A DNA stretch of 57,420 nucleotides from an uncultured Halieaceae bacterium (GTDB taxonomy: Bacteria > Pseudomonadota > Gammaproteobacteria > Pseudomonadales > Halieaceae). Location: positions 1-57,420 of the forward strand of contig CAJWEV010000008.1 of NCBI GenBank assembly GCA_913031575.1, written 5' to 3'. A program made the position numbers and the translations under genes. How positions within the stretch are numbered: the first letter of the stretch is position 1; the number at the start of each line of letters is the position of its first letter. Of this stretch, positions 7,851-28,783 are shown piece after piece. The notes beneath the pieces are model-generated. The model was not told where the DNA came from. It did not search any database and worked only from the letters and a program-made list of their open reading frames with translations.

Positions 7851-9588
7851 ACTCGAAGTCTCGAGTTTATGGCGTGATGCGCAACTAGCGGCGGCAGTCA
7901 TAGCTGTTACTGGACATCAATGTGGTGGTATTCGTGTATCCGCACAACCAGGTCCTGTAAGGGATTTTTGGCTTTCCACGCTCGAGCATCTTCAGCAGGC
8001 AACCATAAGAAAGATACCGTCCAATACCCCCACCGATCGTCTGCTCGGGGGTATGGATCTAACTGAAAGTATGCGCCTTGGCAAACCCATATTAGCGACA
8101 GGTGTACTCACGGAATGCCATGAGCGAACAATTGTTATGCCAATGGCAGAGCGACTACCCAAAGAATATTCAGGGCATTGGTGCGCCGCACTTGACTCCG
8201 GAAAAATTCATGTGGCGAGAGATGGCCTCACGCACACAACAAAAGCGGCTATCACTTTGATTGCATTAGACGAAGGGATTGATGAGGAAGCCCCACCGAT
8301 GGCTTTACTGGAACGCCTCGCACTCAGCATTCAGCTCGACCCCATATCAATTCACGGGGTTGACGATACTGTTTTTAACCCCTCGGATATCGCCCGTGTC
8401 AAAGACAAACTGCGCGTTTGCTCTGCCAACGACGCGACCATAAAACTGCTTGCAGAGCTCGCCGCATCACTGGGCGTGCATTCGACACGCTCACTCATAT
8501 TTGCCGTCACCACATGCAGAGTAATTGCGTGGCTACTTGATCTACCCGAAACCCACAACGACGTAATTGGATCAGTGATTCGCCTGGTTCTTCTCCCACG
8601 CGCAACTCAGTTACCGCAGCAAAAGGTGCCCGAGCCACCTTTGGAAGAACAGGAGTCCGAGGCGACCGAGGAAAATAAGGCTCAAGAGCAGACTCCCGAG
8701 CCGCCCGGCGCTACGGAGGAAATGGTGCAAGCCGCTGCAGCGACCCTACCCCCCGAAATTCTTACAATGCTACTAAGCCGCGCAGAGCGAAGCCGCCAAC
8801 GCCAAAATAAAGCGGGCAACGCAGGCCACCTGTCTCAAGACAAGATGCGCGGTCGGCCTGTTGGTGTGCGCCGCGGCGATATAAAACGCGGCCACCGCAT
8901 TGATATCCCCGCTACCCTGAGAGCTGCAGCACCGTTGCAACATGTGCGAGCTCAATGGGATAGTTCAGGCATCACCAAGCGTGGCCTTTACATCGAATCG
9001 GCAGATATCATGGTTAAGCGCTTTGAGCAGCGGAAATCTAGCGTGATGATCTTTGTCGTCGACGCATCAGGGAGTAGCGCCTATCAGAGAATGGCCGAGG
9101 CAAAAGGCGCCATTGAACTGATACTCGCAGACTGCTACTCGCATCGCACCGAGGTTGCATTGATTACGTTCAAGGGCGAGAGCGCTGAATTACTGTTACC
9201 ACCTACTCGCTCGCTGGTCCGTGCTAAACGAACCGTAGCGCAACTACCTGGCGGCGGGGGTACGCCTATGGGCGCTGCACTACAAGCGATGCACGACCTT
9301 GCTTTGTCAGTTGCCGCCTCAGGTGCTACACCCAGTTTCATCTTACTTACCGATGGCGCCGCAAATGTCGCCCGAGACGGCACCAAAAGCCGCAGTGCCG
9401 GAACCGAAGATGCCATGAGTGCGGCGAAGGCAGTCGCCAGCGCCGACTACCGCGGCATCCTAGTCGATACGGCAACTCGCCCGAGTCCTCGGGCCCGTGA
9501 TCTTGCCGCAGCGCTCGATGCCGTTTATCTACCACTTCCAAATGCATCCGCGGAGTCGATCAACAACTCTGTGCGCGCACTCAATTGA
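7804..9588 (+). CDS. bchD: Magnesium chelatase subunit BchD
   Basis: The integrator subunit of magnesium chelatase. The N-terminal AAA+-like half lacks a working Walker A (QPGPVRDF where GxxGxGKS would be), the middle is an acidic, Pro/Glu/Gln-rich linker at roughly residues 275-310, and the C-terminal half is a von Willebrand A domain with the MIDAS motif DASGSS, the downstream GTPMG threonine and LLTDGAAN. At 594 residues it is of usual length. The start is a GTG at 7804 or the ATG two codons later; either overlaps bchI by 41-47 bases. Confidence 0.95.
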   Translation: MPMLASSELSQPSSPELEVSSLWRDAQLAAAVIAVTGHQCGGIRVSAQPGPVRDFWLSTLEHLQQATIRKIPSNTPTDRLLGGMDLTESMRLGKPILATGVLTECHERTIVMPMAERLPKEYSGHWCAALDSGKIHVARDGLTHTTKAAITLIALDEGIDEEAPPMALLERLALSIQLDPISIHGVDDTVFNPSDIARVKDKLRVCSANDATIKLLAELAASLGVHSTRSLIFAVTTCRVIAWLLDLPETHNDVIGSVIRLVLLPRATQLPQQKVPEPPLEEQESEATEENKAQEQTPEPPGATEEMVQAAAATLPPEILTMLLSRAERSRQRQNKAGNAGHLSQDKMRGRPVGVRRGDIKRGHRIDIPATLRAAAPLQHVRAQWDSSGITKRGLYIESADIMVKRFEQRKSSVMIFVVDASGSSAYQRMAEAKGAIELILADCYSHRTEVALITFKGESAELLLPPTRSLVRAKRTVAQLPGGGGTPMGAALQAMHDLALSVAASGATPSFILLTDGAANVARDGTKSRSAGTEDAMSAAKAVASADYRGILVDTATRPSPRARDLAAALDAVYLPLPNASAESINNSVRALN

Positions 9589-9615
9589 CGGCGCTTCACC
9601 TTGACGCCCGTTGAC

Positions 9616-10464
9616 ATGCCATCCGATTGGCCGTTAAGGCAGGCCAGCAAATTTAAAGTAATCGATAATGTACGATGGCACTTCCAAGTATTGGGGGATG
9701 GACCCGTGGTCCTGCTCCTTCACGGCACCGGAGCGTCAACGCACTCGCTCGCCGATCTTGCGGTGATCTTGAGCAACAACTTCACTTGCTTATTAATTGA
9801 TCTGCCAGGTCATGCGTTTACGTCACCGCTCGACGAACGAGAACAATTGCTCTCAGCAATGGCCGTTGCCGTGTATAAGCTGTGCAACAGACTTGATATC
9901 GCACCTAGCTACATCATCGGACACTCCGCAGGAGCAGCAGTCGCGATTAGAATGTGTCTAGATACCGAACTGTCGCCACAAGCACTTCTATCTGTAAACG
10001 GGGCATTACTTCCCTTTGGCGCGTTTATCGAACCCGTTATGCTCAAAACCGCCCGACTACTCAGTCGGTCAACATCTGTCACAAATTTTCTCGCCCGCCG
10101 CGGCACAGGAACGGCTGATGTCAGGCGGGCGCTCCGAGACACAGGTGCTGAAATATCTGAGCCCATGATTGAGCGGTACTCGTTTTTGATCTCTCACAAA
10201 ACTCATATCGAGGGCACACTCCGGATGATGGGGGGCTGGGAACTTGGGCAATTAGCCAAAGATCTTCCCAGGCTTGCAACACCGATCCACCTCATTGGTT
10301 GCGACAAAGATCATATTGTCCCTGCTACGCGTGCACATAGAGTCAAAAGACTTATACCTGGCGCTACAGCTGCAACGCTCGAAAACGCTGGACACCTGGT
10401 CCATGAAGCGGCACCTGAGCGGGTTTTTCAAGTCTTTATGCAATTGGCTGCCAAATACAATTAG
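9616..10464 (+). CDS. bchO: Magnesium chelatase accessory alpha/beta hydrolase BchO
   Basis: An alpha/beta-hydrolase-fold protein found directly after bchID in purple bacterial clusters and thought to assist magnesium chelation or substrate handling; the exact reaction is not established. The N-terminal DWP...ASKF segment and LLLHGTGASTHSL oxyanion loop are typical of BchO. The nucleophile elbow is IGHSAGAA and a catalytic His candidate is in LENAGHLVHE. I use the ATG at 9616; a TTG at 9601 would add five residues. It follows bchD after 27 bases. Confidence 0.9.
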   Translation: MPSDWPLRQASKFKVIDNVRWHFQVLGDGPVVLLLHGTGASTHSLADLAVILSNNFTCLLIDLPGHAFTSPLDEREQLLSAMAVAVYKLCNRLDIAPSYIIGHSAGAAVAIRMCLDTELSPQALLSVNGALLPFGAFIEPVMLKTARLLSRSTSVTNFLARRGTGTADVRRALRDTGAEISEPMIERYSFLISHKTHIEGTLRMMGGWELGQLAKDLPRLATPIHLIGCDKDHIVPATRAHRVKRLIPGATAATLENAGHLVHEAAPERVFQVFMQLAAKYN

Positions 10465-10495
10465 CGGGTGTGCAACACAAAATCCGGTGTTAGAC

Positions 10496-10513
10496 TGTAA
10501 AAATTAATTTACG
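10496..10513. promoter_or_regulatory. Near-exact PpsR-type site upstream of crtI
   Basis: TGT-N12-ACG, one mismatch from consensus, with an AT-only spacer. It is seven bases upstream of an exact site, a spacing known for cooperative CrtJ/PpsR binding. Confidence 0.5.
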
Positions 10514-10520
10514 AAATTAG

Positions 10521-10538
10521 TGTATTTATTAATGAACA
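10521..10538. promoter_or_regulatory. PpsR-type operator covering the crtI start codon
   Basis: Exact TGT-N12-ACA in which the crtI ATG (10532-10534) lies inside the spacer. Binding here would overlap the start region; the promoter must be upstream, so the site would act with its partner at 10496. Confidence 0.55.
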
Positions 10539-12058
10539 CAGCGCATCCAGATTTTGATCAGCTTCATCATGCCAGACCTGATGAGTGCGCCATTGTGATC
10601 GGTAGTGGCTTTGGTGGATTGGCCTCAGCCATTCGCCTCGCTGCCAAGGGATACCATGTCACATTGCTCGAGAAGCTCGATGCTCTAGGTGGCCGCGGGT
10701 ATACCTATCGGCAGGATGGCTTCACTTTCGACGGCGGTCCAACCATTGTCACTGTCCCCGAACTTTTCGAGGAGCTTTGGACGCTTTGCGGAAAAACCAT
10801 GAGCGATGATGTTGATCTGCGCCTCATGAATCCATTTTATCGAATACGCTTTAACGATGGGCGGGTCTTCGACTATTCGGGTGAAAAGTCAGAAAATCTT
10901 CGCCAAATTCGCGACTACAATCCGGCCGATGCAGAAGGCTATGAACGATACCTAAAGGCGAGTGAGGCGCGTCATAAGGTTGGCTTTGCTTTACTCGACA
11001 AACCTTTTAGCTCGCTGACTCAACTCATGCGATTTGCACCTGACCTTGTTCGACTTCGCGGCGATCAGAGCGTTTACACCTTAGTTTCGAAATACATCAA
11101 AAATGAACAGCTTCGACAAGCAGTGAGCTTCCATCCACTGTTGATTGGTGGAAACCCTTGCACGGCCAGTAGCCTGTACTCCCTTATTTCACACCTCGAA
11201 GTGACCGGCGGGGTCTGGTCCGCAATGGGCGGCACTGGAAGGATTGTTGAGGCACTCGGCGAGCTGATCATAGGCCAGGGAAGCAATATCCGCTTCAACG
11301 CCGAAGTGGATCAAATAACAACCTCGAGCGGCAAGGTAACGGGGGTTCGCCTGAAGTCAGGAGAGCACATCAAAGCCAACCTAGTAGTGTCGAATGCAGA
11401 CTCCGCGTGGACCTACAAATATTTGCTCTCTGAGACAGTCAAGCGTAAGTGGACTGAGCGCCGTATTGATAAAGCTCATTATTCAAACGGGCTTTTCGTT
11501 TGGTATTTCGGCACCAAAAAGCAATATCCGGATATACCTCACCACTCAATTATCTTGGGCCCACGCTATAAAGGTCTGCTAACTGATATTTTTAAGCACA
11601 AGAAGCCAACAGAAGATTTCAGCTTGTACCTCCACCGCCCCACCGCCACAGATCCATCGATGGCGCCGGAGGGCTGCGATACATTCTACGCACTGGTCCC
11701 TGTACCCCACCTTGATTCTGGCACTGACTGGACAACTCATGCGGAAGTGTTCAGAAAGGCTGTCGAGGAGCGACTTGAAGAGACTGGCTTGCCTCGACTG
11801 GGAGAGAACTTGGCCACTTCGATGATTCTAACGCCCCTGGATTTCCAAAATAGACTCAACTCGGTCAAAGGTGCTGGCTTCTCACTTGAACCACGTATCA
11901 CACAAAGTGCCTACTTCAGACCCCATAACAAGAGCGAGGAGGTTGATGGTCTGTTTCTAGTGGGCGCCGGCACGCATCCTGGTGCAGGCATGCCTGCTGT
12001 GTTGTCATCCGCCAAGGTAATCGACAACCTAATTCCGGCAGTAAGCTATGCCAACTAG
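10532..12058 (+). CDS. crtI: Phytoene desaturase CrtI
   Basis: FAD-dependent desaturase that converts phytoene to lycopene (or neurosporene) in the membrane. The FAD motif VIGSGFGGLASAIRLAAKG lies near residue 20, and the C-terminal family signature GLFLVGAGTHPGAGMPAVL is intact. 508 residues from the ATG at 10532; an in-frame GTG four codons upstream is less likely. It overlaps crtB by 11 bases, so the two first carotenoid steps are coupled. Two PpsR-type boxes lie across the start. Confidence 0.95.
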   Translation: MNTAHPDFDQLHHARPDECAIVIGSGFGGLASAIRLAAKGYHVTLLEKLDALGGRGYTYRQDGFTFDGGPTIVTVPELFEELWTLCGKTMSDDVDLRLMNPFYRIRFNDGRVFDYSGEKSENLRQIRDYNPADAEGYERYLKASEARHKVGFALLDKPFSSLTQLMRFAPDLVRLRGDQSVYTLVSKYIKNEQLRQAVSFHPLLIGGNPCTASSLYSLISHLEVTGGVWSAMGGTGRIVEALGELIIGQGSNIRFNAEVDQITTSSGKVTGVRLKSGEHIKANLVVSNADSAWTYKYLLSETVKRKWTERRIDKAHYSNGLFVWYFGTKKQYPDIPHHSIILGPRYKGLLTDIFKHKKPTEDFSLYLHRPTATDPSMAPEGCDTFYALVPVPHLDSGTDWTTHAEVFRKAVEERLEETGLPRLGENLATSMILTPLDFQNRLNSVKGAGFSLEPRITQSAYFRPHNKSEEVDGLFLVGAGTHPGAGMPAVLSSAKVIDNLIPAVSYAN

Positions 12059-13100
12059 CCAATTTCTTCCCACTCCAAGCACAGATATGGAGCTCTGCAA
12101 ACTGCAGCTATCGCACGGGTCTCGATCGTTCTACTTCGCATCACACCTACTGCCATCGGTCATGCAACATGCGGCTTGTGGACTCTATGCTTTTTGCCGA
12201 GAAGCCGATGATCTTGTCGATGAGGGAAATGACCCCAAAGCTGCACTTGAGTTACTACATGAACGGCTCGATAAAATTTATGAATCGAAACCTGAGTATC
12301 GATATACCGATCGAATACTCGCCCAGATTGTTCACACCTATCATATGCCGCGCGGGCTTTTGAATGCTCTACTTGAGGGTTTCGCTTGGGATGCAGAAGG
12401 GAAAATTTATCACACCATAGAAGACGTCTACGATTACAGTGCTCGCGTGGCAGGCTCTGTGGGAGTGATGATGTCGGTTCTAATGGGCGTGCGTGATCCA
12501 AGAATATTGGCGAGAGCTGCTGACCTCGGGACTGCCATGCAATTAACAAACATCGCGAGAGATGTTGGCGAGGACGCACGTCGAGGGAGGATTTATTTGC
12601 CTCTGGATGAGTTAGCCTCCGAGGGAGTTAGTCCCGAGAATCTGTTGACGACACCAAAGTTTAACGAGGGCATTGGCTCTGTAACAAAACGCCTGCTTAC
12701 TCGTGCGCAATGGCTATATCAGCGAGGTGACAGGGGTATCGCTTATCTACCGAGAAAGTATCAGCCTGGAATTCGCGCGGCACGCAAACTCTATGCAGCA
12801 ATCGGTGATCAACTTGCAGAAATCGGTTACAACTCAATTAATGATCGTGCCATTGTCTCTACGAGAAGGAAATTTGCGCTGCTTTCTTCCGCAATCGTGT
12901 TCACGCAGCCGCGCACTGAAGATATGGAAATTCCCTCACTTCCTCAAAATCAATTTTTAATTGACGCCGTGACAGAAACAGGTGGCAAAGCACCATCTGT
13001 CACATCTGACCCGTTCAAGGTACGAACGCTTTGGATGCTAGATCTATTTGAGACCCTTAGAGAACGGGATCGTAACGCGCGAATCACCCACCTTCGATAG
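12048..13100 (+). CDS. crtB: Phytoene synthase CrtB
   Basis: Squalene/phytoene synthase family enzyme that joins two GGPP molecules head to head to give phytoene. Substrate-binding Asp-rich motifs are present: READDLVDE early and NIARDVGEDARRGRIYLP in the middle. SFYFASHLLP at the N-terminus is typical. 350 residues, normal length. It starts inside crtI, and its last 57 bases are antisense to the end of crtC; both reading frames look complete to their stops, so this is a genuine tail-to-tail overlap rather than a misread end. Confidence 0.95.
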   Translation: MPTSQFLPTPSTDMELCKLQLSHGSRSFYFASHLLPSVMQHAACGLYAFCREADDLVDEGNDPKAALELLHERLDKIYESKPEYRYTDRILAQIVHTYHMPRGLLNALLEGFAWDAEGKIYHTIEDVYDYSARVAGSVGVMMSVLMGVRDPRILARAADLGTAMQLTNIARDVGEDARRGRIYLPLDELASEGVSPENLLTTPKFNEGIGSVTKRLLTRAQWLYQRGDRGIAYLPRKYQPGIRAARKLYAAIGDQLAEIGYNSINDRAIVSTRRKFALLSSAIVFTQPRTEDMEIPSLPQNQFLIDAVTETGGKAPSVTSDPFKVRTLWMLDLFETLRERDRNARITHLR

Positions 13101-14048
13101 GCCATAAATGATCTTGCGCATGCGGAACGGCAATAAGCGCTGGACCCAAGAAGAAGCAAAACGATCTAGATCTAAACTTTCATGCATTACGCTGTTTCCC
13201 GACGCATCACAGAGGTGACTTCGGGTATAGAATGGTGTGTCTTCCAGCGTTTTTTGTACCGTAAAACCCTGGTGACTTCGTGCAGGTCTTTTAACGCGCC
13301 ATATAGGCCCGATACTGAGATCTCTCCGAGGCGCAGAATGCTCGGAAGCCATACCGTCCTGTCCATTTCCGAACAATGTCATTAGACAACTCTCACCGTC
13401 GCGAGCATGCGCCTCGTAGACAATGCGGCAGTTGCTACCGAGATCCGCCCGAGACCAGTGCCAGCTGCTAAAGGTCTCCTCCAGTGGCACTGTCCCACCG
13501 TTTGTATCCATGTAGGCCCCGCCTGACCACTTTAAATCGGGGGCCTCCAGTGCCACATCGACCTTGGTTGCAGGTGCGATTGGCCACCATCGGTGCTGAC
13601 CTACCGAATGCAGACCAAAACATTTATCAGTTCGCTCCTGCAAATCAACTTTAACTATTCCCTTAATTGGGCGCCGCATTGGCGCTGAACGCTCGTCTAT
13701 CTTTACCGTGAGATAGCGCCCGTCGAAGCTCATCGATGAAGGTCCGATGTTTAGTGAGTGGGTTGATGTTTTAAGATCGCGCATTCGCCGCTCGGTCATC
13801 GCCCAATATTTACGCTCAGGCTCATAAAACACCGCATTTACACAAACAAACTCGCGAGGATCCGCATCTCCTCGCTTTCGCGCAGAGGCATAGAACGGTG
13901 AAAAAACGGTGCCTATAAAGAAAATAAGCGTAAGACCGTGCTGTCCGCAATCACTGAATCCATCGACGTACCACCATCGATAGCCATTTTTTCCAACCGG
14001 AAAGTTAAAACCTAAGCCTTCCGAATTTACTAGCGGTCTTTGCTCCAT
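13044..14048 (-). CDS. crtC: Carotenoid 1,2-hydratase (hydroxyneurosporene synthase) CrtC
   Basis: Adds water across the 1,2 double bond of acyclic carotenoids, giving the tertiary hydroxyl later methylated by CrtF. Family features seen: the N-terminal GFNFPVGKNGYRWWYVDGFSD segment (here split by a typical Tyr/Trp-rich motif), FIGTVFSPFY, ERKYWAMTERR and SSWHWSRADLG. 334 residues; the ATG at 14048 gives the expected start. It is transcribed away from crtE across a promoter region with two PpsR-type boxes. Confidence 0.93.
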   Translation of the reverse strand: MEQRPLVNSEGLGFNFPVGKNGYRWWYVDGFSDCGQHGLTLIFFIGTVFSPFYASARKRGDADPREFVCVNAVFYEPERKYWAMTERRMRDLKTSTHSLNIGPSSMSFDGRYLTVKIDERSAPMRRPIKGIVKVDLQERTDKCFGLHSVGQHRWWPIAPATKVDVALEAPDLKWSGGAYMDTNGGTVPLEETFSSWHWSRADLGSNCRIVYEAHARDGESCLMTLFGNGQDGMASEHSAPRRDLSIGPIWRVKRPARSHQGFTVQKTLEDTPFYTRSHLCDASGNSVMHESLDLDRFASSWVQRLLPFRMRKIIYGLSKVGDSRVTIPFSKGLK

Positions 14049-14097
14049 TATTTATCTCTCGCTTTTCGCTTGCAGGACCTACAAGATGGGCGTAGTG

Positions 14098-14115
14098 TGT
14101 AAATTAATATAGACA
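14098..14115. promoter_or_regulatory. PpsR-type operator between crtC and crtE
   Basis: Exact TGT-N12-ACA; the arms extend to TGTGT and ACACA. It sits 49 bases from the crtC start and 46 bases from crtE and can control both divergent genes. Confidence 0.7.
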
Positions 14116-14122
14116 CAATAAA

Positions 14123-14140
14123 TGTACAAATAAAATAACG
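14123..14140. promoter_or_regulatory. Second PpsR-type site, crtC/crtE region
   Basis: TGT-N12-ACG, one mismatch, seven bases downstream of the exact site. The pair mirrors the arrangement in front of crtI (exact plus ACG-type site, seven-base gap). Confidence 0.5.
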
Positions 14141-14161
14141 CTCACCCGCGGGGTATTGGCT

Positions 14162-15040
14162 ATGAACAGCGCATTACTTGATTGTGAACAGCACATAGAA
14201 GAGGCGATAGCAGAGCACGCCACCGCACAATGCCCGCCACTACTGGCTCAAGCACTGAACTATGCAGTGTTCCCCGGCGGCGCCCGTGTGAGACCACAAC
14301 TATGCAAAGCTGTCGCTCTGGCAAACAATTCAAGCGATGTAGGTCTTGCGAATGCTGCCGCAACGGCCGTGGAGCTTTTGCATTGCGCATCTCTGGTACA
14401 TGATGACCTGCCCTGTTTTGACGATGCTACCCAGCGGCGGGGCAAACCCTCAGTACACGCAAAATTTGGGGAACGTATTGCGGTATTAACGGGAGATGCA
14501 CTGATCGTCGCAGCGTTCCAAACACTCGCCGCACACGCCGTCCATGCCGTTAGAATCGAGCGCGTGCCTCTCGTCACAACAATTGTTGCGCGCGGTGTTG
14601 GCGCTCCACACGGAATATGCGCGGGTCAAGCATGGGAATGCGAGCAGCGAGTCGACCTCACCCGCTATCACCGTGCGAAAACGGGCGCTTTGTTCGTTGC
14701 AGCGACCTGTGCCGGTGCAGCGTCTGCAGGTGTCGATCCAGGCCCCTGGGTCAGCCTTGGTGCAAGTATCGGCGAGGCCTATCAAATTGCGGACGACATA
14801 AAAGATGCTGTCTCCGATCCCGAAACACTCGGCAAACCCGTGGGTATCGATGTCAAACTCGATCGTCCCAGTGCAGTGCGCACACTTGGTCTTGACGGGG
14901 CCGTTAGCCGACTGAAGGAGTGCCTTGAATCCGGCCTCGACAGTATGCCCTCTTGCGCAGGGCAGAATATGCTCTATCAATTGGTACGAGCCCAGTCGAG
15001 CCGGTTTATTCCTGCAAAGCTTGGCCAAGTGGCGGCCTGA
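14162..15040 (+). CDS. crtE: Geranylgeranyl diphosphate synthase CrtE
   Basis: Class I trans-prenyltransferase that makes GGPP for carotenoids and for the bacteriochlorophyll tail. The first Asp-rich motif is HDDLPCFDDATQRRG and the second is QIADDIKDA; GGARVRPQL near the N-terminus binds the diphosphate. 292 residues from the ATG at 14162; the upstream TTG adds two residues only. Its TGA shares bases with the crtF ATG (TGATG). Confidence 0.93.
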   Translation: MNSALLDCEQHIEEAIAEHATAQCPPLLAQALNYAVFPGGARVRPQLCKAVALANNSSDVGLANAAATAVELLHCASLVHDDLPCFDDATQRRGKPSVHAKFGERIAVLTGDALIVAAFQTLAAHAVHAVRIERVPLVTTIVARGVGAPHGICAGQAWECEQRVDLTRYHRAKTGALFVAATCAGAASAGVDPGPWVSLGASIGEAYQIADDIKDAVSDPETLGKPVGIDVKLDRPSAVRTLGLDGAVSRLKECLESGLDSMPSCAGQNMLYQLVRAQSSRFIPAKLGQVAA

Positions 15041-21480: not shown

Positions 21481-22305
21481 ATGTCAATGTTGAGTTTTGA
21501 AAAGAAATATCGCGTTAAAGGAGGGACGCTGATCGGTGGCGATCTCTTTGACTTTTGGGTTGGCCCTTTCTATGTGGGATTTTTTGGCGTAACTACCTTC
21601 TTTTTCGCGGCAGTGGGAAGTGCGCTTATTCTCTATGGCGCGGCCTTGGGCGATACCTGGAACTTTTGGCGGATAAGTATTGATCCACCTGATATTTCCT
21701 ACGGTTTGGCCTTAGCACCACTGAAAGAGGGTGGTTTATGGCAAGTAATTACACTTTGCGCGACAGGTGCCTTCGTTTCGTGGGCGCTACGGCAAGTGGA
21801 GATCTCACGTAAGCTCGGAATGGGACTTCATGTGCCGTTCACATTTAGTTTTGCGATTCTAGCCTACGTTACCCTTGTGATTATAAGACCAGTCCTCATG
21901 GGCGCATGGGGACATGGCTTCCCCTACGGAATTATGAGCCATCTCGATTGGGTCTATAACATCGGATATCAGTATGTGAACTTCCATTACAACCCTGCTC
22001 ACATGATTGCCATCACATTCTTCTTCACAAATGCACTAGCGCTATCTATGCATGGATCGCTCATATTGATGGCCACCAACCCCGCGGCTGGGGAGTTAGT
22101 GAAAACAGGAGAGCACGAAAATACGTTCTTTAGAGACGATATTGGCTATTCAATCGGTGCATTGGGAATCCATCGTCTAGGTATGTTCCTAGCGATATCA
22201 GCCGCTTTCTGGAGTGCTGTATGTATCGTTATCAGCGGACCTTTCTGGGCCAAAGGCTGGCCTGAATGGTGGAACTGGTGGCTCGAACTTCCAATCTGGT
22301 TTTAA
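21481..22305 (+). CDS. pufL: Reaction centre L subunit PufL
   Basis: Five-helix membrane subunit that with PufM binds the special pair, accessory pigments and quinones. Strong signatures: [26 protein letters not shown] (split motif), NFHYNPAHM with the special-pair/iron His residues, and [11 protein letters not shown]. 274 residues, standard length; ATG 21481 preceded by GAGGAGA. Followed after 15 bases by pufM. Confidence 0.98.
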
Positions 22306-22320
22306 TGGAGGGCTTTTAAC

Positions 22321-23250
22321 ATGATTGAATACCAGAATATTTTTACAAAAGTTCAGGTTGATGCACCTGATTATCCGGGCGTTCCTCCTTATGGCAGTGA
22401 AAATGATCGAACAAAAGGCGTCACTCACTCTTATTTAGCGGGAAAGTTTGGAGACGCGCAGATTGGACCAATCTACTTAGGTCCTATCGGTGTGGCATCA
22501 CTTTTCACCGGCATACTCGCTTTTGTGCTGATCGGACTGGGTATGATGGCGTCAGTAGATTGGTCACTCGGCGAGTTTGTTAAACAACTATTCTGGCTGG
22601 GTGTATACCCCCCTGCGCCGGAGTATGGCCTGTCTATCCCACCTTTAAACGAAGGGGGCTTATGGCTGCTGTGCGGCATGTTACTGACCGTATCGATAAT
22701 GCTTTGGTGGTGGCGAACCTTTGCATTATCCGCAAATCTAGGTATGAGCAACTATCTAGCCTGGGCCTTTGCGGCAGCAATCTGGCTCTATCTAGTTCTA
22801 GGCTTCATCCGACCAATCCTGATGGGAAGTTGGTCAGAGGCGGTACCGTTTGGGATATTCCCTCACCTAGAGTGGACCAATAACTTTTCACTACGCTATG
22901 GCAATTTGTTCTACAACCCATTCCATATGTGGAGCATTTTCTTCCTGTATGGGTCAGCAGTACTGTTTGGAATGCATGGTGCGACGATCTTGGCGACAAG
23001 CCGTTACGGAGCAGATCGCGAAATCGATCAGATTACAGATCGCGGTACAGCTGCAGAGCGCGGAGCCCTCTTTTGGAGATGGACGATGGGTTTCAATGCA
23101 TCAATGGAGTCAATCCATAGATGGGCGTGGTGGTTCGGTGTCCTCACATGTGTAACAGGCGGAATAGGCATAATTCTTACTGGGACAGTTGTTGACAATT
23201 GGTACCTATGGGGAATCAAACATGGTCTGGCTGAACAACCAGAGTTTTGA
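22321..23250 (+). CDS. pufM: Reaction centre M subunit PufM
   Basis: Partner of PufL in the type II reaction centre. Signatures: [51 protein letters not shown] with the His ligands, and the C-terminal [15 protein letters not shown] helix. 309 residues; GGAGGG ribosome site. The C-terminus ends at AEQPEF with no PufX/PufC gene following; the next gene is pufB after 179 bases. Confidence 0.98.
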
Positions 23251-23298
23251 AAAGTACAAGACCTATGAAAAGTACGGTAATACAAAATTTGCCTTACT

Positions 23299-23319
23299 GG
23301 CGCGGTGCTTCACCCCGCC
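23299..23319 (+). other. Intercistronic hairpin between pufM and pufB
   Basis: GGCGCGGTG (23299-23307) pairs with CACCCCGCC (23311-23319) around CTT, one mismatch; a second small hairpin ATGCT-GTAA-AGCAT follows at 23337-23350. Such elements could stabilise the upstream message or attenuate, setting the ratio of reaction centre to LH1. Confidence 0.5.
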
Positions 23320-23429
23320 GGAAAGTAAGTCTCTCTATGCTGTAAAGCATGTTGAGCACATTGGCGTCGTGACATCGGCTGGTAGCCAAGCCGCGACATA
23401 TCGCTGAAACCATCATGGGAGGTAAAACC

Positions 23430-23585
23430 ATGAACGATGAAAGAGTAGGAATGTCTGGACTCACCGAACGCGAAGCTCGTGAATTCATGAAATCTTACGA
23501 AAAAGGCATGTGGACATTTGTTGCGATTGCAAGCGCTGCTCACATTGCTGTTTGGGCGTGGAAGCCTTGGTTTGACTTTATGTAG
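23430..23585 (+). CDS. pufB: LH1 beta subunit PufB
   Basis: A 51-residue single-helix antenna protein that pairs with PufA to hold bacteriochlorophyll in the LH1 ring. Signatures: the N-terminal LTEREAREF segment, GMWTF before the helix, and AAHIAVWAWKPW with the Mg-ligand His38. Met20 occupies the position 18 residues before that His where LH beta chains normally have a second conserved His. Start ATG 23430 with GGGAGG seven bases upstream. Located downstream of pufM rather than before pufL. Confidence 0.93.
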   Translation: MNDERVGMSGLTEREAREFMKSYEKGMWTFVAIASAAHIAVWAWKPWFDFM

Positions 23586-23616
23586 AACCAAGAATCCACA
23601 TCATTAGTGTGACAAG

Positions 23617-23629
23617 CCCTGTGACAGGG
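23617..23629 (+). other. Small hairpin between pufB and pufA
   Basis: CCCTG-TGA-CAGGG, followed by TCTTTATC; lies in the 75-base gap. It may tune pufB and pufA message stability or act as a weak terminator. Confidence 0.4.
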
Positions 23630-23660
23630 TCTTTATCAAACTAAATATGGAGAAGATGAC

Positions 23661-23807
23661 ATGGTAACAACACAACCATTCGCGAAAGTCTGGATGCTAT
23701 TTGATCCAAGACGTGTACTTGTCGCGCAGGGTGTTTTCCTGTTCAGCGTTGCAATAACAATCCACTTTATTGTTTTGAGCACCGCAAAGTACAACTGGAT
23801 CGGCTAG
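23661..23807 (+). CDS. pufA: LH1 alpha subunit PufA
   Basis: A 48-residue antenna protein. Canonical features: [20 protein letters not shown], the Mg-ligand His35 in TIHFIVLST, and YNW near the end. The chain stops three residues after that Trp-containing motif, so the C-terminal tail is short compared with Rhodobacter LH1 alpha. ATG 23661 with GGAGAAG upstream. Last gene of the puf unit; a strong terminator follows. Confidence 0.93.
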
Positions 23808-23982: not shown

Positions 23983-24006
23983 CCTTTCACTACACCAATG
24001 CGAACT

Positions 24007-24576
24007 ATGGCAAAAAACGCGGCAACCGTATCGTTTGACAATGAACGCTTACAACTCGTTAATTCAAGCGACGACGTAATCGGCTATGAATCAAAGTTAG
24101 CTGCGCACCTTGGTAAAGGCCAACTGCATCGAGCATTTTCAATCTTCATCGTCAACGAAAAAGGCCAGGCGGCTCTCCAGCGCAGATCTACTAATAAACT
24201 ATTGTGGCCAGGCTATTGGGCCAATTCATGTTGCAGTCATCCCCGAGAGGGCGAGACCATAATGGATGCAGCCTATCGTCGACTAAGTGAAGAGCTTGGT
24301 ACCCAAACGACATTGCAATGGCTCTATAAATTTGAATACCGGAGTGAATACAATGACGTTGGCACCGAGCATGAACTATGCAGTGTGCTGATAGGCCATA
24401 TTGATTCGAAGCGCGAACTCAGTCCAAACCAAACCGAGATTGATGATATATCTTGGGTAGATTGGCACGAAATCGGCGCGTGGCTGAATGATCCCAATAT
24501 TCCGACAACCCCTTGGCTAGCCCTGGAGTGGTCACATCTCAACGAGCACCATCTAAACGCTGTTCTGAATTTATAA
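24007..24576 (+). CDS. idi: Isopentenyl-diphosphate delta-isomerase, type I
   Basis: Interconverts IPP and DMAPP, feeding CrtE. A Nudix-fold protein of 189 residues with the catalytic Cys in WANSCCSHPREGE and the catalytic Glu in RRLSEELG; LQRRSTNKLLWPGYW is typical. Two in-frame starts, ATG 23998 and ATG 24007; neither has a clear ribosome site and I use the second. Separated from pufA by a terminator, convergent with the HemN-like gene. Confidence 0.93.
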   Translation: MAKNAATVSFDNERLQLVNSSDDVIGYESKLAAHLGKGQLHRAFSIFIVNEKGQAALQRRSTNKLLWPGYWANSCCSHPREGETIMDAAYRRLSEELGTQTTLQWLYKFEYRSEYNDVGTEHELCSVLIGHIDSKRELSPNQTEIDDISWVDWHEIGAWLNDPNIPTTPWLALEWSHLNEHHLNAVLNL

Positions 24577-24593: not shown

Positions 24594-25880
24594 TTATAAA
24601 AAGCCATTTTTGGCAACTGAAGGGCCGTTGACGGGCCACACAAAAGGTAGCCAATGCCGGCCGGCATCAGAAATCTGAACATTAGCTCCTGAATCGCAAG
24701 ATTCGAAACAATAGTCTGGGAAACCTAAATCCGAAAGAAGTGCCAACGCACTGCTACCGTTTGGGACCGCCTTCTTGGCAAATAACGTGTTCAAATCAGA
24801 ACGGTCTCGCTTTTCTCCCGCCGTCATTACCTTTATCGCCTCATAAGGAGGCACCTTACTCTCCAAATGTGCCTTCCAGTCAGTGATGTTTAGTATGTTA
24901 TGGGCGAGAAGGTTCCTAGTCTCGGTGACTGCACCCACACCGAACCCGAGAGTAGTTTCGTTTTGACCAATAAAGTATCCATGCGGGCCGAAACCAGTAG
25001 AGTCAGGCTGAGTTTGACCCACCCAGGAGTGATTAGGCCTGACAAAACTATTTAATCCCACCCACTCCCAGTCTAGCGCTCTAAACCCTTCAGCAACACG
25101 GTAAAACATTGAAAGCTTCTCTGCGAGGCTAAGGTCTCCGTAACTGTCCATGCCACGTTGGTGAGGGAACAGCTCCGGTCTTCTAATAAATTGTTGACAA
25201 GATATTACGTCAGGGGACAGCTCATTTATGGTGTTAACAGTTTCCTGTATTGATTGAGCCGTCTGTAACGGAAGTCCGAAGGTCAAATCCATGTTCACTG
25301 ACTTGAACCCTAAGTTCCTTGCCATGGATATTGTGTCTTCAATCAGACCAATTGACTGGGTCATACCAATGGCAGCCTGCACGCGAGGGTCTACATCGCG
25401 CACTTCAAGATTTATATCAGTTACACCTAAACCTCTAAGCAATTCCAGCTGAACGCGGGAGGAGCGCCTGGGATCGATGTGCACCGTTATGGGCGCATCA
25501 TCAGCAAAATCAAATGAACACGCGAGCGTATTCAGGAGTTCAGCAAAGTTCAAATCACTCAAGTAGTTGGGGCAAGGGCCACCAATTACGAGACGATGGA
25601 CCCTGGGGTTGGTAGAGAAATTAGCCGTAACCAACTTAATTTCAGAGGTAAGAAGGCGAGTGTAATCCGTAAGATCGCTCTCTCGGTGTGTCACAACCGC
25701 AAGTTTATGACAGCTAAAGTCCAAGGCGGGTGTAAAAGGCAAGTGGATGTAAAGCGCTACTGGGCGAAGTGGCTCTGACTTCAGATCACTAGCAACCAAC
25801 TCTAGGGTCTCTGACGACAACTCGCTCCCGCTAAGAACGCCGCCTGACCGCATCAACTGACTGACTACCTTGTCATTCAT
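24594..25880 (-). CDS. HemN-like protein lacking the radical-SAM cluster cysteines
   Basis: A 428-residue protein aligned over its length with oxygen-independent coproporphyrinogen III oxidase HemN: LYIHLPF, THRESDLTDYTRLLTSEI, FGLPLQT and GVGAVTETRN match the family pattern. However the HemN cluster motif PFCxxxCxxCxC reads PFTPALDFSCHK: T50, D54, C57 and K59 stand where four Cys are expected, so only one is kept, and the GGGTPTYL glycine motif is IGGPCPNYL. A 4Fe-4S cluster and radical chemistry are therefore unlikely. The ATG at 25880 follows GGAAGG; a longer start at 25958 is possible. It is last in line behind puhE, 222 bases apart, perhaps with its own promoter. A haem/porphyrin-binding or assembly role is inference. 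Confidence 0.8.
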   Translation of the reverse strand: MNDKVVSQLMRSGGVLSGSELSSETLELVASDLKSEPLRPVALYIHLPFTPALDFSCHKLAVVTHRESDLTDYTRLLTSEIKLVTANFSTNPRVHRLVIGGPCPNYLSDLNFAELLNTLACSFDFADDAPITVHIDPRRSSRVQLELLRGLGVTDINLEVRDVDPRVQAAIGMTQSIGLIEDTISMARNLGFKSVNMDLTFGLPLQTAQSIQETVNTINELSPDVISCQQFIRRPELFPHQRGMDSYGDLSLAEKLSMFYRVAEGFRALDWEWVGLNSFVRPNHSWVGQTQPDSTGFGPHGYFIGQNETTLGFGVGAVTETRNLLAHNILNITDWKAHLESKVPPYEAIKVMTAGEKRDRSDLNTLFAKKAVPNGSSALALLSDLGFPDYCFESCDSGANVQISDAGRHWLPFVWPVNGPSVAKNGFL

Positions 25881-26003
25881 GGTTACCTTCCCCAGCCCAC
25901 CGTTTGCCCGATGGGTCGTCAGTAACTCCCGGTGATCAAGTGGCCTGAAACCAACCAACGCAAGGCGCGAATACTAAGAACAGATCAATCGAGGTTCAGC
26001 TTC

Positions 26004-26102: not shown

Positions 26103-26858
26103 CTAGTTTGGTGCATTCCGCTTGAACCATCGCCAGAGCTTCTCCTCTTTCATTGGTAACATCAAAAACAGATGCTCAAGAGTGCCCAACCCGGCTAGGC
26201 CAGTCATTAATAGATATGAGTACTGCTGATATAGCTCTTCCGAGTCCCCAGCAGCGGTAAAGAGTAGATACGTAATACTTAAGCAACATACTAGCGAGAT
26301 GATTCCAAAAGTAGTGGTTGTGCCGGTTTTGATATATGAAACTGTGTGTCGCAAATTTGCCGGTAACCAGTCCGAATTGAATCGCTGAGTCCCCAAAAAT
26401 AGATTCAGTTTGGTGCTCCACCTCATTAACCACAGTATTAGTGCAGTGTGGAAAGCAACGGGGTTTCGGGCCTCCATCGATATGAAACCGAGCATAACGA
26501 CGGCGATAATGATAGAAATCTCGTGATACAAAGACGTATTAACACCACCCACAAAACGCTGTATCTCAGTTTGGTTGTCTGGCAAGGGATTCTTGTTGGG
26601 TCCAGTCACGTAGCCCATCAAATAGCTGGTCTCTAACCAAGCCCAAATCAAAAGCCCGAGGAAAAATCCGATGGTTACATCCCATAGAGTGCTCGCGTGC
26701 ACATTCTCAGTTAATAAAATAATCGCACCGAGAGTCAGGGAAGTTAGTAAGCCAAAGGCGCTAAATTTTTTATTACCTTCGAGCTGCACAAGTGTCAAAA
26801 CAACACCAGTTGCTAGCCACCAAGCAACAAGAGATAGCAAGAATGCATTTATAAACAT
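26103..26858 (-). CDS. puhE: Photosynthetic complex assembly protein PuhE
   Basis: A multi-helix membrane protein of 251 residues (about seven hydrophobic segments) matching the putative photosynthetic complex assembly protein family (DUF3623). Features: WWLATGVVL at the start, WAWLETSYLMGYVTGP in the middle, TLILWLMRWSTKLNLFLGT-like helix and HLFLMLPMKEEKLWRW at the end. In Rhodobacter puhE loss alters complex levels. Three bases separate it from puhC. Confidence 0.9.
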   Translation of the reverse strand: MFINAFLLSLVAWWLATGVVLTLVQLEGNKKFSAFGLLTSLTLGAIILLTENVHASTLWDVTIGFFLGLLIWAWLETSYLMGYVTGPNKNPLPDNQTEIQRFVGGVNTSLYHEISIIIAVVMLGFISMEARNPVAFHTALILWLMRWSTKLNLFLGTQRFNSDWLPANLRHTVSYIKTGTTTTFGIISLVCCLSITYLLFTAAGDSEELYQQYSYLLMTGLAGLGTLEHLFLMLPMKEEKLWRWFKRNAPN

Positions 26859-26861
26859 GCG

Positions 26862-27338
26862 TTACTTGTTCGCAACAACACTGAAGGATTGGTACTCCGC
26901 TGACTGATCGAGTATTTTCTGAAATACCCCTACATTGTCTCGTCCAAAAGCGTCGAGCGCTAACCAATACCCGGTAATTGGATCTGACAGTAGAAGACTA
27001 CCGGTCTGAAGTTTCTCCAACTTAAAACTTGATTGCGACTCGATGCTCCGAATTCTTCTTTCATTTACTAGCGTTCTAACCGCTCCTCGCAGAAAGAATC
27101 CTTCACCTGATTTAAACGTAGCCAGCTCCCTATCAGTATTACCAAGTGTCACGGTCACGGAACCGTCAGTCGAGTCGCGAAAACCTATGAGCAATTCATT
27201 TGTTACCTCAGCGGTCGGTCGAGCCGGCGGCTCGCCGTTCCCCTGCCCTATCAATCCGACCAATAACGAAATTGTTACCATCGCTGACAGGGAGACCAAT
27301 AGCGGATTTCTCAAAAAAAGAGATGTCATTATGCGCAT
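26862..27338 (-). CDS. puhC: Photosynthetic complex assembly protein PuhC
   Basis: A 158-residue protein with one N-terminal membrane helix (residues about 12-32) and a periplasmic domain containing the family patterns GSVTVTLGNTDRELATFKSGEGFFLRG and ITGYWLALDAFGRDN. It supports reaction centre/LH1 assembly. Start at 27338 (MRIM...) with GGGGAA upstream. Lies between puhB and puhE in the usual order. Confidence 0.88.
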   Translation of the reverse strand: MRIMTSLFLRNPLLVSLSAMVTISLLVGLIGQGNGEPPARPTAEVTNELLIGFRDSTDGSVTVTLGNTDRELATFKSGEGFFLRGAVRTLVNERRIRSIESQSSFKLEKLQTGSLLLSDPITGYWLALDAFGRDNVGVFQKILDQSAEYQSFSVVANK

Positions 27339-27356
27339 ATTTTGTTCCCCAAGGAT

Positions 27357-28028
27357 TCAGAGTAAAGCTGGGTTCAGACCCCCTTGTTGCTCGCTTTGAC
27401 GATCATCCGTCTGTCTATTTTGGACTGATTCGCCCTCAACGGAAATTAGCTCTTTGAGCAAACCCGCGACGACCTCCGGTTTCTCAATTGCTCTCAGCAG
27501 AGGTTGTACATGCTTCCATTCAAAAGTGCGAACACTCGGCCATAACAGCAGCCAATACACCTTCAGGCCTTTATCCGGTACTAGTACGATGTCCCCTGTG
27601 TCATCCGAGTAAGTTCGAATACCAGCGGACTGCAGTTTGGTTAGCGGGATTGCAATCACTGAAGGAAGCGCAAGGCCTGATCGGATCACGAAACGCTTGT
27701 TAGTTAGTGCGTAGATCGTGCTTTTGGCATAAAAGTGCCCGAGCACACTAAGTATGGCGATCACTATCCCACCGAGAGACAACTGCCACAAAAGCGAACC
27801 CAGCAGCACCTTAATCTCGGCGGCCGAGGAGAGCGTTCCAATACTGGTGAAACCAACTACTAAAGCAAAATACATCGTTAGCGCCTTCAAATGAAAGGCT
27901 CTACGAATGAACGCAGATGGCTTAGGTTGGGCACTCCAAAGGAGCGTTTCATCGGGCGGAAGATCGAAAGCTCCATCACTGTCGATCGATCCGCCGCGAG
28001 TGATTACATCGGTCAGATCAGCACTCAT
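27357..28028 (-). CDS. puhB: Photosynthetic complex assembly protein PuhB
   Basis: A PH-like (bPH2) membrane protein of 223 residues with two or three helices. Signatures: LPPDETLLWSAQPKP, YALTNKRFVIRSGLALPSVIAIPL and the DTGDIVLVPD segment. PuhB assists reaction centre assembly. The last bases of puhA overlap its start by four. The C-terminal 25 residues are polar and Gln-rich. Confidence 0.92.
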   Translation of the reverse strand: MSADLTDVITRGGSIDSDGAFDLPPDETLLWSAQPKPSAFIRRAFHLKALTMYFALVVGFTSIGTLSSAAEIKVLLGSLLWQLSLGGIVIAILSVLGHFYAKSTIYALTNKRFVIRSGLALPSVIAIPLTKLQSAGIRTYSDDTGDIVLVPDKGLKVYWLLLWPSVRTFEWKHVQPLLRAIEKPEVVAGLLKELISVEGESVQNRQTDDRQSEQQGGLNPALL

Positions 28029-28783
28029 AGTACCGGACCCAGACGACTGGGCTTGGCATACAAAGTACCACCACCATAGAAGCCTACAATTTTGTCCTCT
28101 TCCTGAAGTGTCACCTGATCTGGATTCGCCAACTTAGGGACCTGTTTGAACTGATCGCCTCTAATTGATTTAACCCTAACCGATCCATCCTTTTGAACAC
28201 GCGCAAAGTTCATCGGCAATAAAACAGAGCCAGCTTCAGTATCAACCTCGGCGTAACGAAAATGAGGCTCTGCTCTGTCAACCCACATATCTATCACCGT
28301 GCCACCAGACTCACCGTCGCACCCATATACTTCATGACCTCGGGGGTCAGGGTCGCGTGCGCTCACTTTATGGTCACTGTCCACTCGCAGTGGGACGATC
28401 CTCGGACGGCCGTCTTCGGACATGTCAGGGTGTTCTGGTCTGATCGCATAAGCAGCGGGTCCAACTCCGTCCACCATAGGGTCGCCGGTTGGTTCAAGAG
28501 GCGAGCCGGGGGCGGGGCTCGTTGGCTTTGCCTTTAGCTCGTACTCGTCCTTCCATGGTGCAGGAACCGTTCGCTCCCCCTGGCCATGAGCCAATCGATA
28601 GGTCTTCGGCTCTGGCATTCCGCCAAGCCCAGTTTCATAACTGTCAACAACCCCGTCTGCTCGATAAGGGAAACCCTCGCGTTTGCCTTCTCGATGCAAA
28701 TAAATTACCAGCCAGACGAAAAAGACATTGAACGCAGTAAATAACATCGCCGTGATGTCGTAGTACAACTCTCCATTACCCAT
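28025..28783 (-). CDS. puhA: Reaction centre H subunit PuhA
   Basis: Single N-terminal membrane helix (residues 12-29) followed by FPYRADG and a large cytoplasmic domain with PAPWKDEYELKAKPTSPAPG, DPRGHEVYGCDGESGGTVIDMWVDRAEP and QVTLQEEDKIVGFYGGG. It caps the reaction centre and guides protons to QB. 252 residues, normal. GAGGAAT ribosome site; 26 bases after lhaA. Confidence 0.97.
   Translation of the reverse strand: MGNGELYYDITAMLFTAFNVFFVWLVIYLHREGKREGFPYRADGVVDSYETGLGGMPEPKTYRLAHGQGERTVPAPWKDEYELKAKPTSPAPGSPLEPTGDPMVDGVGPAAYAIRPEHPDMSEDGRPRIVPLRVDSDHKVSARDPDPRGHEVYGCDGESGGTVIDMWVDRAEPHFRYAEVDTEAGSVLLPMNFARVQKDGSVRVKSIRGDQFKQVPKLANPDQVTLQEEDKIVGFYGGGTLYAKPSRLGPVL

Follow-up and report, generated by a model that had tools for sequence, protein, structure and literature searches.

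What does a HemN-like protein do in a photosynthesis cluster once its radical-SAM site has been taken apart? The question is raised by a gene at 24594..25880 on the minus strand of the window (the whole stretch of 57,420 nucleotides analysed here), which encodes a Cys-less protein of 428 residues that we assign, from its frame, profiles, alignment, synteny and tree position, to a photosynthesis-cluster HemN subfamily (PGC-HemN). The open frame was called from a TTG (24594..25958), and the ATG at 25880 gives the 428 intact codons that an earlier, sequence-only reading had remarked on. The gene lies between puhE and idi, and a HemN-like protein encoded in the family's photosynthesis clusters is its syntenic orthologue. 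Upstream on the same strand stand puhE, puhC, puhB and puhA (26103..28783, minus), assembly and reaction-centre H genes that co-diverge with it. Downstream, idi, for isopentenyl-diphosphate isomerase (23998..24576, plus), is a convergent neighbour, and beyond it come pufL and pufM, for reaction-centre subunits (21481..23250, plus), strongly diverged from those of the clade. Two small ORFs (23430..23807, plus), assigned only by eye from their translations, would be the LH1 antenna genes pufB (about 23430-23585) and pufA (about 23661-23807). We tentatively propose that the HemN-like protein assists reaction-centre assembly as an accessory factor, that its Fe-S/SAM centre would have served a step tied to PufC, and that the protein would be kept here as a pseudoenzyme, a reading that is plausible on sequence grounds, if somewhat short of probable.

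The dismantling of the site is extensive. In an alignment with E. coli HemN (PDB 1OLT), C62, C66, C69 and C71 correspond to T50, D54, C57 and K59 of the window protein (codons 50-59, 25704..25733, minus), reproducing exactly the T50-x3-D54-x2-C57-x-K59 motif of the sequence-only reading, and GGGTPTYL aligns with GGPCPNYL, as expected from the reported replacement of GGGTPTY by IGGPCPNY (GGPCP for GGG(T/S)P at codons 100-104, 25569..25583, minus). The changes go beyond the cluster motif: E145, R184, G113 and T114 of E. coli HemN become H134, M173, P102 and C103, with the His at codon 134 (25479..25481, minus) and the Met at codon 173 (25362..25364, minus) replacing what we take to be SAM-site residues. 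Thus, the window protein has lost two of the three cysteines of the radical-SAM motif together with SAM-site residues (E145H, R184M, G113P). It keeps D209 (D198), Y56 (Y44) and H58 (H46), and the position of Q172 is Arg, likewise in all 55 three-Cys-group rows read. The HemN scaffold that had been claimed is retained as well, in that the LYxHxPF and GLPxQT stretches are common to HemN and a HemN fold is predicted; the AlphaFold2 model, built from an alignment of the window protein with eight HemN-type proteins (pLDDT 78.9, pTM 0.82), has 1OLT as its best PDB match (TM 0.83). A sequencing slip is unlikely, because several separate codons differ and changes of the same type recur in syntenic copies of other genomes, with the same pattern in G084 and similar ones in G046, G012b, G032b, G034 and G020.

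One alternative is that the gene encodes an isozyme of the oxygen-independent coproporphyrinogen oxidase, dispensable beside HemF. The best NCBIfam profile for the window protein is indeed TIGR00538 hemN, HemF is found in the window's genome (G000), in 46 of 49 same-genus genomes and in 75 of 78 genomes, and a published comparison of aerobic phototrophs, in its available part, gives the name hemN to a gene that it places downstream of puh in members of the NOR5/OM60 clade (PMC3176799). However, the window protein reaches 184 bits on the hemN profile, or 183.2 when the genome is searched, where the cut-off is 324.95, the cluster copies in the family cut-off listing also fall below that value, and the window protein lacks CxxxCxxCxC, GPRYTSYP and FQGY; in the accessible text of PMC10320005, GPRYTSYP and FQGY are described as required for HemN oxidase activity. 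Moreover, a true HemN with all hallmarks occurs in addition to the cluster copy in four genomes (G010, G088, G089 and G115; sequences read), and second matches of similar score to these occur in G090, G114, G116, G117 and G166 (judged by score only). The isozyme reading is therefore very improbable, and, judging from profile and motifs, it is very likely that the window gene does not encode a coproporphyrinogen oxidase, as the sequence-only reading had supposed. The published label would count the gene toward anaerobic haem synthesis, probably wrongly, at least as used in the available part of that paper (PMC3176799). Beyond this label, the portions of the literature searched gave no description of the gene or of a link to pufC, and a term search of the available part of a paper on the OM60/NOR5 clade (PMC3679898) returned neither pufC nor hemN.

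The cluster gene is a paralogue of HemN and differs from the oxidase even in copies that retain every cysteine ligand. Searched at E 0.001, all 78 genomes had a match to the window protein, counting those of HemW type, and three rounds of fetched loci yielded 69 rows: the 4 true HemN and 65 copies from photosynthesis clusters, five of which are fragments. GPRYTSYP, FQGY and the fourth cysteine are present in none of the 65 cluster copies, fragments included, versus all three in 4/4 true HemN. C62, C66 and C69 are kept in 54 of the 63 copies with a readable motif, and the C71 position is Arg or His. Every fetched locus that was long enough (56/56; 39 + 17) has puhE, idi or crtC as a neighbour. 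In a tree built without the motif columns, from which three fragments were left out, the cluster copies form a clade apart from the four true HemN at 100/100. Five residues, R139, Q144, R161, D182 and W335, are shared by 9/9 Cys-less copies and by no fewer than 95% of the 51 full-length three-Cys copies, and occur in 0/4 true HemN. The window copy has each of the features by which we define the subfamily, namely the position by puhE/idi, the clade apart from HemN and the five residues. Because the subfamily as a whole, even where three cysteines remain, already falls short in the HemN tests, the window protein is a pseudoenzyme within a separate paralogous group rather than a recently inactivated HemN; the loss of the site described by the sequence-only reading stands. 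The sequence-only reading had also proposed looking for a normal HemN elsewhere in the genome: none scores over the cut-off in this assembly (2.14 Mb, 88 contigs, 79% complete), in which HemF and a HemW-like protein (the second match) are encoded, and among the same-genus genomes G000-G048, its own included, only 1 of 49 (G010) has a HemN over the cut-off. On Pfam, the window protein matches Radical_SAM only (PF04055; 39.1 bits, above the gathering threshold of 29.5).

Other HemN relatives offer partial precedents. HemW (TIGR00539) is likewise a HemN-like protein that has departed from oxidase chemistry, and in E. coli its 4Fe-4S cluster is needed for haem transfer and not for haem binding, according to the accessible text of PMC10320005, which cites earlier work; the window protein, by contrast, scores 82.9 bits against the HemW cut-off of 205.4, has no HNxxYW and coexists with the HemW-like gene elsewhere in the genome. 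CgdH2 of Campylobacter jejuni, HemN-like and without oxidase activity, binds haem through two histidines, which the available part of the same paper gives as H48 and H133 in a table and as H45 and H133 in the abstract (PMC10320005). The window protein has H46 (in LYIH) and the gained H134, 88 residues apart, a likeness in spacing only, and whereas CgdH2 keeps CxxxCxxC in that text, the window protein does not. By analogy, H134 and H46 of the window protein may form a bis-His site for a tetrapyrrole that replaces the SAM site; H134 is found in 0/8 other Cys-less copies. PsgB (TIGR04419), by its NCBIfam name a non-iron pseudo-SAM relative of HemN, is a precedent for a pseudo-SAM HemN, and differs in that the window protein scores 27.5 bits against its cut-off of 300; our literature search on PsgB found no paper.

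Loss of the cysteines is recurrent. The alignment with cluster homologues that the sequence-only reading had suggested reveals the same or similar losses in syntenic copies of other genomes; with the window copy, 9 of the 63 readable copies in about four lineages are affected, and four is the smallest number of changes on the HemN-like tree. The window protein and G084, from another genus, read T-x3-D-x2-C; G046, G012b (probably another strain in its bin), G032b, G034 and G020 read C-x3-D-x2-C, mostly as PALD, and form a five-sequence ‘PALD’ clade. The middle cysteine has thus become Asp in three lineages (that of the window, the five-sequence clade and the other genus). The remaining losses are C-x3-G-x2-S in G005 and S-x3-C-x2-G in G039. 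With the HemN-like data, a clade of G084 and the PALD copies is rejected (p 0.0003), as is one of the window copy and G084 (p 0.003), and therefore Asp-type forms arose separately at least twice, in pufC-less clusters each time; the window copy and the PALD copies as one clade give p 0.084, above rejection. The HemN-like protein rejects a single origin of all Asp-type copies (AU p 0.0005); pufLM does not, as joining all five pufC-less sequences in one clade gives p 0.078, above rejection.

These Cys-less relatives are under purifying selection. Four of five Cys-less pairs allow dN/dS to be computed, the fifth being saturated, with NG86 values of 0.15, 0.14, 0.17 and 0.11, the first three from pairs that share three sequences, and YN00 values of 0.20, 0.21, 0.25 and 0.18; among 11 three-Cys pairs, the 7 computable ones have NG86 values of 0.05-0.12. 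Saturated dS leaves G005/G039 and both window pairs, among others, with no value, the window copy having no relative close enough. A pseudogene is rejected for the Cys-less relatives by these ratios, three of the four values coming from three sequences. The earlier argument that the gene is kept for some reason is accordingly upheld by the relatives, and the dN/dS test that went with it has an outcome for them and, with saturation, none for the window copy itself. Relaxed constraint would offer a different account of the recurrent losses, with an O2-sensitive cluster useless in aerobic phototrophs and a gene drifting away for reasons unrelated to PufC. The very long branch of the window copy (1.89) fits such drift, and so do G005 and G039, which lost cysteines with pufC present. 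Drift sits poorly, however, with the NG86 dN/dS of 0.11-0.17, the open frames and the five subfamily residues in 9/9 Cys-less copies, and the pufC-bearing G141 and G010, whose branches are also long (1.68 and 0.93), keep all three cysteines; we consider this account improbable.

The Asp-type losses coincide with the absence of pufC. At 23251..23429 (plus), the junction of pufM and pufB in the window, pufC is missing; pufC-bearing relatives have it between pufM and idi, an interval that in the window contains no tetrahaem ORF, and PF02276 (pufC) has no match in the window's 79%-complete genome. The photosynthesis cluster thus has pufLM and, judged by eye, pufBA over 21481-23807 of the window, and lacks pufC there. 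Within the family (f1), pufM exceeds the cut-off in 49 of 140 genomes and 47 of 140 have pufC, and 6 of the 49 pufM-bearing genomes have no pufC match (G000, G020, G032, G034, G084 and G007, the last with pufM at a contig end and the interval unreadable). Among 40 readable pufM-idi intervals, a tetrahaem ORF is present in 35 and absent from 5; in G084 a single contig carries pufL, pufM and idi but no pufC. The pufM-idi interval is likewise without pufC in G020, G032, G034 and G084. PufC could be coded in 40 of the 65 PGC-HemN rows and both traits in 39, of which 32 combine pufC with three cysteines, 2 (G005 and G039) pufC with lost cysteines, 5 no pufC with lost cysteines and 0 no pufC with three cysteines. 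In all three Asp-type lineages, pufC is missing wherever the puf operon is readable, which it is not in G046 and G012b. The fourth Cys-loss lineage is the exception, as G005 and G039 keep a tetrahaem pufC despite their lost cysteines.

The number of independent events behind this association is small. The independent pairs number three and are all concordant, but three are too few for a sign test to reach 0.05. On the bch tree, which has 84 branches and 43 tips and on which G032b was not scored as a separate loss, three losses would fall on the four Cys-loss branches by chance with a probability of 3.3e-4 when weighted by length and 4e-5 when uniform, in a post hoc test of a pattern itself noticed post hoc and involving at most three pufC losses. 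The pufLM tree joins G084 to G032b/G034/G020 at 98/98, and this grouping of G084 with the PALD copies, together with the unrejected single pufLM clade, means that the pufC losses may be fewer than three. G032 (69% complete) fits the association poorly, as it has no pufC match and yet carries two copies, a Cys-less one by the pufC-less puf operon and an intact three-Cys one beside puhE; the puf-linked copy was coded and the three-Cys copy left out of the trait table. PufC losses in Alpha- and Betaproteobacteria are described in section 3.4, the part consulted, of a 2019 survey (PMC6920907); those found here appear to be gammaproteobacterial, as inferred from gene order and the literature. We place the window in the NOR5/OM60 clade on the strength of the hemN-labelled gene that follows puh there (PMC3176799).

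Which genes diverge together with the HemN-like gene? Pigment genes mostly do not, with percent identities (window to clade/within clade) of 95.8/94.6 for bchX, 94.2/93.8 for bchY, 91.3/92.7 for bchZ, 94.6/95.6 for bchL and 83.9/87.7 for bchH; bchM is somewhat lower at 80.1/86.6. By contrast, the values are 85.6/98.1 for pufL, 81.6/96.5 for pufM, 65.7/90.0 for lhaA, 73.5/92.2 for puhA, 40.5/81.7 for puhB, 33.8/73.5 for puhC, 41.6/71.7 for puhE and 36.0/75.9 for the HemN-like gene. Because reaction-centre and assembly genes co-diverge and most pigment genes do not, the protein would be tied to the reaction centre rather than to pigment synthesis. idi, a non-assembly gene of the same block, diverges too (50.1/73.3), and its inclusion means that the pattern fits linkage as well. 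Under linkage, divergent pufC-less puf-puh segments would have been horizontally acquired, with degenerate HemN-like genes riding along, and the association with pufC would not reflect function. Several observations are of this kind. The window segment may owe part of its divergence to replacement by a foreign segment rather than to acceleration, because its pufLM differ from those of G006 at 0.72 of fourfold sites versus 0.53-0.57 for bchXYZ, and the window pufLM reject their bch position (AU p 0.024). Between G032 and G022, fourfold differences are 0.12 in bchX, 0.29 in bchY and 0.36 in bchZ versus 0.63 in pufL, 0.71 in pufM and 0.77 in HemN', and G032b pufLM joins G034/G020 at 100/100, whereas the bch tree puts G032 with G022; from these sequence comparisons, the pufC-less pufLM-idi-HemN' block of G032 looks to have been acquired as a unit. 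Nevertheless, the HemN-like data do not reject the bch position of the window (p 0.127, above rejection), the Asp-type forms that arose separately, at least two, are both in pufC-less clusters, and G032 already had a three-Cys copy, yet still holds the Cys-less one. We regard linkage in place of function as a serious, if doubtful, possibility.

Two further loci stand out. In L044 (G032:C8), at about 8000-14300 of a frameshift-rich contig, pufLM-idi-HemN' appears to have been exchanged amid G022-like bch genes. In G020, the HemN-like gene lies by idi and is absent from its usual place between puhE and crtC, where a stretch of about 4.9 kb (L154, 10271-15173) has no match to the window proteins used as queries.

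How might a reaction-centre accessory factor, our preferred reading, lose its active site and still be kept? By analogy with HemW-type haem chaperones, PGC-HemN could bind a tetrapyrrole in its HemN barrel. In most relatives, the three-Cys cluster and SAM would drive a step required by reaction centres that contain the tetrahaem PufC. In the lineage of the window, where PufC is absent and the cluster motif and SAM site are dismantled, the remaining scaffold could be kept for binding or assembly with PuhB/C/E and LhaA. Among the roles that the sequence-only reading had listed (a porphyrin or haem-binding chaperone, a regulator of tetrapyrrole flow, or an assembly factor for the puh/puf complexes), the last fits best. 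A fuller version would make the three-Cys radical-SAM PGC-HemN a maturation factor of the reaction centre serving PufC, and the Asp-type, cluster-free form a chaperone of cytochrome-free reaction centres that has arisen repeatedly and travels with the pufC-less pufLM-idi block; taken whole, this version seems to us rather unlikely. More broadly, the repeated loss of a radical-SAM site, for the most part in lineages that lack one subunit of the reaction centre, provides a genetic handle on assembly of the complex and a natural series of enzyme-to-pseudoenzyme conversions within one syntenic gene.

PGC-HemN is a family-specific addition: in our sample it is confined to photosynthesis clusters from a single bacterial family. 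In six cluster-bearing genomes from other families, the 14 kb fetched around puhE contain no HemN-like gene; HemN-like matches lie elsewhere in these genomes, and five of the six have pufC. PufC therefore does not generally need PGC-HemN. In a class-wide sample outside the family (369 genomes, 256 with a match), 29 non-self loci were fetched (L116-L144) from among the higher-scoring matches, and CxxxCxxCxC is present in 28 of them; the remaining one, L117, has CxxxCxxCxR and yet scores over the HemN cut-off (539.1 bits).
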